From Xanthobacteraceae bacterium (GTDB taxonomy: Bacteria > Pseudomonadota > Alphaproteobacteria > Rhizobiales > Xanthobacteraceae): DNA of 40,363 nt. The stretch covers positions 1 through 40,363 of the forward strand of contig JAIESI010000174.1 in NCBI GenBank assembly GCA_019746135.1, in the 5' to 3' direction. Below, piece by piece: positions 877 through 40,363 of this stretch (positions are counted from its first letter, which is position 1; each line of letters starts with the position of its first letter). A program made the translations under genes and the position numbers. The notes below the pieces were generated by a model, which did no database searches, was not told where the DNA came from, and was given only the letters and a program-made list of their open reading frames with translations.

Positions 877-1864
877 GGGGGGACCTCGCCAGCAGACTGT
901 CGATGCCGCCGCGGGCGTAGAGCACGATCAGGAGCATCATCGGGCCGAGGAGCAGCTGCCAGTATTCCTTGGCGGCGGCGATCTCCTTGCCGGTGAACAC
1001 ATGGGTGACGAAGCCGATCAGGTGCGGCAGCGCCTCCTCGAGCACGAGCAGCGCGATCGCGCCGATCACCGGGCCGAACACGCTGCCCATGCCGCCCAGC
1101 ACCGCCATGACGATCAGGTCGCCGGAGCGCGTCCAGTGCATCAGCGCCGGGCTGATGAAGTTGGTGTGGTTGGCGAGCAGCACGCCGGAGAGCCCGCAGA
1201 GGACGCCGGCGATCACGAAGCAGGTCAGCTTGTAGCGGAACGTCGGAATGCCGATGGCGCGCATGCGCCGCTCGTTGGAGCGCGCGCCCTGGATCACCAG
1301 GCCGAAGCGCGAATTGACCATGCGCCAGACGAGGTAGACGGTGGCGAGCAGCAGCGCGAGGCAGAGATAGTAGAACGCGGTGCGGTTCGACAGGTTGAGC
1401 AGGCCTGCGAACTCGCTGCGGCGCTGGATGGTCAGCCCGTCGTCGCCGCCGTAGCGGTCGAGGCCGTTGGCGACGTAGTAGACCACCTGGGCGAAGGCGA
1501 GCGTGATCATGATGAAGTAGACGCCGCGGGTGCGCAGGCTCAGCGCGCCGACGCCGAGCGCGAACAGGCCGGACACGAGAAGCGCCAGCGGCCATTGCAC
1601 GAAGCCGGTGTCGATACCTTCCTTGGCGAGAATGCCGACCACATAGCCGCCGATGCCGAGATAGGCGGCGTGACCGAAGCTCACCATGCCGCCGAAGCCC
1701 ATGATCAGGTTGAGGCTGACGGCGGCGATGCCGAGAATGACGATGCGGGTGAACAGCGTCATCAGGAAGGTGTTGCCGGTCGCGGCGGCATAGACCGGGA
1801 TCAGCGCGAGGATCGCGATCAGGCCGGCGACGACGGCGTTGCGGGGGGTGAGCCAGGCGGTCAT
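869..1864 (-). CDS. livM: ABC transporter permease LivM
   Basis: This 331-residue polytopic membrane protein is the LivM-type permease of the importer. Several hydrophobic segments are visible, and the LivM motifs SLNLIMGFGGMVSFGHAAYLGIG and VLGGMGSVFGPVIGA are present (only short parts of these need be matched: GMVSFGHAA and GGMGSVFGP). The start ATG at 1864 opens with MTAWL. That start lies inside the downstream copy of a 22-bp direct repeat, whose other copy overlaps the livH stop codon; an inserted repeat element has apparently separated an originally overlapping livH-livM pair. The end overlaps livG by 8 bases. Confidence 0.94.
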   Translation of the reverse strand: MTAWLTPRNAVVAGLIAILALIPVYAAATGNTFLMTLFTRIVILGIAAVSLNLIMGFGGMVSFGHAAYLGIGGYVVGILAKEGIDTGFVQWPLALLVSGLFALGVGALSLRTRGVYFIMITLAFAQVVYYVANGLDRYGGDDGLTIQRRSEFAGLLNLSNRTAFYYLCLALLLATVYLVWRMVNSRFGLVIQGARSNERRMRAIGIPTFRYKLTCFVIAGVLCGLSGVLLANHTNFISPALMHWTRSGDLIVMAVLGGMGSVFGPVIGAIALLVLEEALPHLIGFVTHVFTGKEIAAAKEYWQLLLGPMMLLIVLYARGGIDSLLARSPRG

Positions 1865-1872
1865 GTGCTGGA
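1851..1872. repeat. Right-hand copy (in operon order) of the 22-bp direct repeat flanking R1-A
   Basis: This copy matches 2069-2090 at 21 of 22 positions. It contains the functional livM ATG and its first codons. It is best read as one half of a target-site duplication made when the repeat element entered. Confidence 0.8.
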
Positions 1873-2068
1873 TCTCTCGGCACGCGCCCCGGATGCGGTG
1901 CAGCGCGAAGCGCGCAGCGCGCAGCGGTGCACCGCTGATCCGGGACCGTTACGGACACTGCCTTTGGAACGGTCCCGGGTCTGCCATAGCGCGTCGAAGA
2001 CGCGCGTAAACGCGCGTGTGGCACCGCTTCGCGCTGCGCTGCGCCCGGGACAAGAGAAAGGAAGATAT
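1873..2068. repeat. Palindromic repeat element R1-A inserted between livH and livM
   Basis: This 196-bp segment is almost all inverted symmetry. An 11-bp perfect stem pairs 1940-1950 with 1968-1978, and a 13-bp word at 1900-1912 (gcagcgcgaagcg) recurs inverted at 2025-2037. Bases 1984-2015 are a 32-bp core identical to 38611-38642 and found inverted, with two changes, at 19590-19621. It contains no plausible gene. It is flanked by direct repeats at 1851-1872 and 2069-2090 (21 of 22 bases identical). Confidence 0.85.
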
Positions 2069-2090
2069 AGCCAGGCGGTCATTTGCTGGA
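2069..2090. repeat. Left-hand copy (in operon order) of the 22-bp direct repeat flanking R1-A
   Basis: This copy overlaps the livH stop codon and still holds an ATG with the livM first codons (ATGACCGCCTGGCT on the minus strand). The reading frame from this ATG runs into the repeat element. The livH TGA overlaps this ATG as ATGA, the likely ancestral livH-livM junction. Confidence 0.8.
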
Positions 2091-40288: not shown

Positions 40289-40363
40289 GCCGGGTAGGCG
40301 AGGAAGTTGCCTCCCTCGCCCCCCACAGACCCGGACGTGCAGGATTCCCGCATCCGGTTCCTC
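40289..40363 (-). mobile_element. 3' end of a group II intron (domains V and VI), antisense to tctA
   Basis: On the minus strand, 40360-40328 reads as a domain V hairpin (GAACCGGATGCGG...CCTGCACGTCCGGGTC in form), 33 bases against the usual 34. Then a tgtgggg linker and a domain VI hairpin (40320-40297) with 10-bp arms and a GCAA loop follow. The unpaired A at 40295 fits the branch point. The exact 3' end is uncertain between 40284 and 40289. Domain V has A where the catalytic AGC triad has G, so activity is doubtful. The rest of the intron and any reverse transcriptase lie beyond the window. Confidence 0.75.

Follow-up and report, generated by a model that had tools for sequence, protein, structure and literature searches.

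The junction between the livH and livM genes of a Xanthobacteraceae bacterium (G000) carries a palindromic repeat of a dispersed family, which probably entered the ATGA overlap of the two genes here and, separately, in a second species of the genus (G002). Each insertion would have duplicated 21-22 bp of the junction and left a small reading frame that could relay ribosomes from livH to livM; we place the probability of this reading at roughly 0.58. Across the repeat family, exact bridging, in which a frame starts on the stop codon of the upstream gene and stops on the start codon of the downstream gene, is over-represented at junctions that hold a copy.

In the window (the whole stretch of DNA analysed, 40,363 nucleotides) both genes lie on the minus strand, livH at 2079-2996 and livM at 869-1864, as open reading frames whose products match the Pfam permease model BPD_transp_2 (E 1.3e-34 and 2.2e-43, respectively). 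The best NCBIfam scores of these products are to UrtB and UrtC, followed by LivH and LivM, and since all fall below the model cut-offs the names are only shorthand, taken over from the first, sequence-only reading of this DNA, for a pair of permeases of the branched-chain amino acid or urea type. Read along the coding strand, livH is followed by a 22-bp junction copy (TCCAGCAAATGACCGCCTGGCT, 2069-2090), a 12-bp spacer (2057-2068), a 176-bp palindromic repeat (1881-2056), an 8-bp spacer (1873-1880), a second 22-bp copy (TCCAGCACATGACCGCCTGGCT, 1851-1872) and livM. The upstream copy carries the livH TGA (2081-2079), which forms the first ATGA overlap, and the livM ATG (1864-1862) lies inside the downstream copy. 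The sequence-only reading had claimed as much: direct repeats identical at 21 of 22 positions, flanking 196 bp of strong inverted symmetry, with the livH stop kept as ATGA in one copy, the livM start supplied by the other, and the split junction left usable. Our comparison of the repeats and the reading frames bear this out, both genes being intact permeases, and repeats of the livHM score are expected by chance 0.0 times (5112 cross-paired flanks from 72 family copies). Amendment is needed on two counts. The symmetric insert is real, but the conserved repeat within the 196 bp is confined by the family ends to about 1881-2056, and the upstream copy does overlap the livH stop, but its ATG is also the start of an open frame 73 codons long.

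The family to which the repeat belongs is defined by its ends, CTCG|TGTCCCGG...CCGGGACA|CGAG, taken from 48 copies in which they are exact; it is this profile that separates the livHM repeat from its 22-bp copies by spacers of 8 and 12 bp, the former outside the conserved family unit. With element cores TGTCCCGG/CCGGGACC, the unit is a three-hairpin element of 120-210 bp (121-209 bp as measured). At livHM an inverted repeat search places the central hairpin at 1934-1984, with arms at 1934-1950 and 1968-1984, and a small nested palindrome (GCCATAGCGCGTC..., 1983-2022), read from the sequence, is present in other family copies as well. The fold of the interval 1851-2090 has a z-score of -4.6, equalled by none of 200 shuffles, and the coding-strand RNA of the repeat folds at -104 kcal/mol (z -5.5). 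The interval 1700-2300 contains neither a terminator-like nor a sigma-70-like site, and at the Rfam gathering score the junction repeat has no match. The sole Rfam match in the window lies elsewhere, at its very end (40289-40362, minus strand), where a group II catalytic intron scores 40.6 bits, barely over the gathering score. The earlier suggestion that a palindromic repeat was inserted here is upheld, the repeat being dispersed, with 78 match rows in its own genome, and 158 of 391 genomes of the bacterial family match one repeat copy at E 1e-8. Among copies with confidently called flanking genes, the neighbours are co-directional for 95 of the 132 in set 1, convergent for 34 and divergent for 3; for the 68 of set 2 the corresponding counts are 44, 20 and 4. 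Some junctions hold a repeat in several species, forming ortholog groups (L204, L232, L006, L445; L236, L272, L279, L284, L295, L296).

Since the duplicated segment takes in the stop of livH as well as the start of livM, the arrangement in the window is livH-ATGA-[73-codon frame]-ATGA-livM. The bridging frame (1861-2082, minus strand) begins with its ATG on the livH stop, runs across the whole insert and closes on a TGA (1863-1861) that overlaps the livM ATG. A frame of 57 codons, likewise opened by the ATG of the upstream copy and closed by a TGA on the livM start, spans the insert in G002, so that both of the livHM inserts are bridged exactly in spite of their unequal lengths; the start-to-start distances are 218 in G000 and 170 in G002, each 2 modulo 3. 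The peptides begin MTAWL and MTALL, as LivM does, and continue into repeat-encoded sequence; that of 73 residues has no Pfam or NCBIfam match. The mechanism we propose begins with insertion of the three-hairpin repeat at the 4-bp ATGA overlap of co-directional permease genes, with duplication of the junction. Ribosomes finishing livH would restart on the overlapping ATG and translate through the repeat, opening its hairpins as they go; they would then terminate at the TGA on the livM ATG, where they would reinitiate for livM. Coupling would in this way be carried across an insert that, left untranslated, would form a structured, GC-rich gap of 176 nt.

The same pattern was looked for at other junctions, namely wherever a family copy lies between co-directional genes with no more than 60 bp on either side, the flanking genes being called by codon usage. 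A loose bridge is a frame whose start lies close to the upstream stop and whose end lies close to the downstream start; a strict, or exact, bridge has its start codon on the upstream stop and its stop codon on the downstream start. For the null, the repeat of another copy was placed in the same junction in the same orientation. By the loose measure 42 of 84 junctions in set 1 are bridged against a null of 24.1, with none of 300 draws as high. Since the pattern in set 1 was one of overlap at both ends, the strict measure was derived from it and coded before set 2 was examined, the loose measure being the pre-set replication test. The loose measure failed to replicate in set 2 (12/37 against 10.83, with 404 of 1000 draws as high). 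The strict measure gives 19/84 against 4.58 in set 1 (0/1000 draws) and 6/37 against 1.69 in set 2 (2/1000 draws). When the junctions are reduced to 95 ortholog clusters, 17 are strictly bridged against 4.23 (0/1000) and 36 loosely against 24.9 (3/1000). Junctions with a start on the upstream stop and a stop on the downstream start are bridged in 22 of 30 cases, for a null of 5.2 (15 of 23, null 3.6, when collapsed), and all ten ATGA...ATGA junctions, seven of them in set 1 and three in set 2, are bridged where element swapping gives 1.86 (about 18%). Collapsing orthologs leaves 8 of 8 of these against 1.48, reached in 0/5000 draws, and 7 of 7 when livHM is set aside. A third set, of 30 loci from one genus with nine usable junctions, has 8/9 loose bridges against 2.5 and 2/9 strict against 0.5 (63/1000), and its single ATGA...ATGA junction is bridged. 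A different repeat family showed no effect at 17 junctions (strict 0/17 against 0.24, loose 6/17 against 4.3), and its one ATGA...ATGA junction is not exactly bridged.

From these sequence patterns we infer translation of the bridging frames, reinitiation at their ends and selection for continuous translation at bridged junctions. The best of the alternatives is a role for the hairpins at the RNA level, for example in setting the livH:livM ratio or in the stability or processing of the mRNA, with the open frame incidental to a GC-rich, stop-poor sequence. The very stable fold favours such a role, REP-type repeats have been proposed to act on transcripts in the accessible text of two papers (PMC3733652; PMC5082802), and minus-strand frames through 70 further family copies are open in any case 85 times out of 210, the right phase adding a factor of 1/3. 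The swap null, however, retains this openness of the family and yet yields only 1.5 of 8 where 8 of 8 are observed, and we consider the RNA explanation rather unlikely, though an RNA role and a relay frame could coexist. Over all tandem copies, sense and antisense frames are about equally open (1.62 against 1.51), with no clear bias.

How far the livHM history extends to the bridged junctions as a class is a different matter. Double start-on-stop junctions are not above chance (30/121, with 28.5 expected), and outside livHM the two ends of a junction are on average no more alike than random sequence (14 junctions, mean 4.5/18, null 4.85); copying of the junction is thus shown at livHM alone. 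At other bridged junctions a decayed duplication is no more than hinted at, by murE-murF (L147), with p 0.037 uncorrected among 17, and by L256, where 11 of 18 positions agree in register but the gapped test gives p 0.21. A more general version of our reading, that repeats are tolerated at coupled junctions as relay genes, the junction being copied, the resulting micro-gene overlapping both neighbours by 4 bp and selection holding its frame open and in phase as the repeat sequence changes, is put forward only tentatively. If true, it would describe a recurrent route by which selfish palindromes become new small translated genes in operons, and would amount to a natural test of the reach of relayed termination-reinitiation.

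What the junction looks like without the repeat is seen in other genomes. Among the best 80 of 295 livH loci from other genomes, 71 lack an insert and have a start codon overlapping the livH stop, 8 lack it in some other arrangement, and one, in G002 (L081), has the insert; the single junction copy with a 4-bp overlap that the first reading expected of an empty site is therefore the arrangement at 71 of the 80. No relative with two junction copies and no insert appears among the junctions listed. The genus of G000 is represented by 11 genomes, those matched to named records being metagenome assemblies, and the insert is present in G000 and G002 and absent from the other nine. A further comparison of livH matches gives the same result, with the insert in 2 of the best 30 loci of 246 genomes, again those of G000 and G002. 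In two of the insert-free genomes, G001 and G009, LivM is slightly extended at its N-terminus in a different way; across loci L015 to L066 the livM start varies by about 24 bp in G001 and by 51 bp in G009, through short tandem duplication or extension.

The insert in G002 lies between two copies of the same junction, a 21-22 bp duplication of its own in which 20 of 22 positions match, and differs from that in G000 by 48 bp in length, through several indels. On a 20-row tree of livH and livM, in which G000 is flagged for unusual base composition, G000 falls within a supported seven-row group (95/99) in which none of the six other rows has an insert, and G002 adjoins G004 (80/67), which also has none. 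Parsimony requires a minimum of two changes, and forcing G000 and G002 into one clade costs 136 log-likelihood units and is rejected by the AU test (p 2e-9), which makes separate insertions the likelier history. The junction copies point the same way. They differ at 1 of 22 positions within G000 and 2 of 22 within G002, whereas between the two genomes the downstream copies differ at 7 of 22 and the upstream ones at 4 of 22, so that each duplication looks younger than the split of the species. The competing account is a single ancient insertion and duplication that preceded the split, followed by exact recombination losses elsewhere, with the copies kept alike by conversion. It would explain why the site, the orientation and the right-hand boundary of the duplication are identical in G000 and G002, and why the spacers beside the repeat appear somewhat similar by eye. 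It is nevertheless unlikely, given that empty sites occur on both sides of the tree, that two gains are enough and that a clade of the two is rejected, and it would need four positions to have been altered in step in both copies. On the gene tree and the copy differences, two separate insertions therefore remain the likelier account. Differences between the central loops of the two inserts were dropped as proof of separate insertion, because serS-surE inserts of one clade (L347, L348, L349, L350, L358) differ likewise, as if hairpins had been exchanged between copies.

A further possibility is ordinary transposition of a MITE-like element that makes a target-site duplication of about 22 bp, with the reading frame as a by-product. 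Empty sites with one copy exist, as this would predict, direct repeats of 21/22 and 20/22 are present in two species, and a 22/24 repeat accompanies a family copy in G250. In its inverted ends, CTCGTGTCCCGG...CCGGGACACGAG, which are typical of the family, and as a small dispersed palindrome the element resembles a MITE; the test for an abutting target-site duplication failed. A scan of 72 copies found a flanking repeat scoring at least 12 only in the two livHM copies, and adding the copies of other genera gave 3 of 166, the third being that in G250. With at least 18 matches in 22 there are 3 among 146 unique copies for a null of 0.25, the shifted-flank null comprising 3504 values of which two, 21 and 22, are so high. 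At 16 or more matches there are 5 of 146 against 4.2, hence no half-decayed tail; an apparent excess of half-matching flanks (7/163 at 16 or more, null 1.3) was gone once duplicate loci were removed and flanks of the same locus were shifted for the null. The other 143 unique copies thus have no such repeat, and at livHM in both genomes the direct repeats are set apart from the conserved element. In G250 (L287, about 370-590) the family copy lies downstream of a livF-type gene and its 22/24 direct repeat is of the last codons of that gene; the native stop codon comes after the first repeat copy, so the layout is not target-insert-target. The bridged ATGA...ATGA pattern, finally, is not something that transposition of this kind predicts, and we judge it improbable as an explanation. 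The first reading had proposed the 22-bp duplication as a mark of the family, to be sought beside other copies; the three flank scans rule it out as a family habit, and with 3 of 146 and no decayed tail the duplication at livHM is exceptional. It may be visible there since only insertions that copy both stop and start would keep both genes working. There is likewise no support for a simple tandem duplication of the livM start as a first step with insertion as a second, the sequences that follow the two copies being unmatched by eye; the livM start of G001 does contain a short tandem duplication. A MITE of Geobacter uraniireducens, Chunjie, has reportedly entered an operon without disturbing it, and to judge from the title of that report, as cited in PMC10969869, it resembles the livHM repeat as a small inverted-repeat element within an operon whose structure is kept.

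That the arrangement is an artefact of assembling or binning a metagenome-like genome (G000 is 97.6% complete, in 395 contigs, with 8.5% contamination) is very improbable, intact livH and livM flanking the insert on a single contig and the same arrangement being repeated in an independent assembly, G002 (record SHVN01000008).

Several known systems bear comparison. The GTAG/CGTC-tagged REPs are palindromes scattered mainly through the intergenic DNA of alphaproteobacteria, Bradyrhizobium and Rhodopseudomonas among them, and they and their dimers prefer gaps between co-directional or convergent genes, according to the accessible text of their description (PMC3733652). The livHM family is likewise small, dispersed, palindromic and found mostly in such gaps; it differs from what that text describes in that its unit is of 120-210 bp rather than 20-40 bp and its ends, CTCG-TGTCCCGG in 48 copies, have no CGTC or GTAG tag. 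Br-REP1 of Bradyrhizobium, in the accessible part of PMC5082802, belongs to a three-palindrome repeat near gene ends and so shares with the livHM repeat its three palindromes and its occurrence in related genera, but the cores given there for Br-REP1 and Br-REP2 (CCGGAATCTCGAGATTCCGG and the Br-REP2 core) are by eye absent from 1873-2068. Rickettsia palindromic elements, of about 150 bp, can be read as protein and are tolerated on that account, as the available portions of three sources have it (PMC2229807, PMC10969869, PMC3733652). The livHM repeat can also be read as protein, but whereas those elements are described as lying in frame within a host protein, it forms a separate frame with stop/start overlaps to two intact genes. 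We found no description of palindromic repeats in bridging frames between overlapping genes in the literature searched, which left most subscription journals outside its coverage. If the bridging rule holds, translation continuity, beyond gene integrity, decides where hairpin repeats stay in operons, and repeat DNA would have a route to small translated frames, of a kind that annotation would usually discard as spurious.

The rule would also supply natural experiments on ATGA termination-reinitiation, with inserted and empty alleles at livH-livM, murE-murF and serS-surE. The last two junctions were named through NCBIfam, murE-murF from 40-residue pieces. At murE-murF a single, empty ATGA overlap is present in G001, G002, G004, G006, G009 and G010, and the repeat in G000 and G007, where both alleles are bridged. 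At serS-surE a tight stop/start junction with no insert is present in G001, G002, G004 and G009, the family repeat in G000, G003 and G005 and twice in G007, and other repeats in G006 and G010. Inserts longer than 60 bp occur at 20 of 32 serS-surE loci, and the loose rule bridges 13 of these 20 and not the other 7; as counts with no null, these divide into 7/7 in the genus of the window and 6/13 elsewhere. With inserts at 20 of the 32 loci (for example L447-L476) by several unrelated-looking repeat types, serS-surE resembles a hot spot of intergenic repeats.
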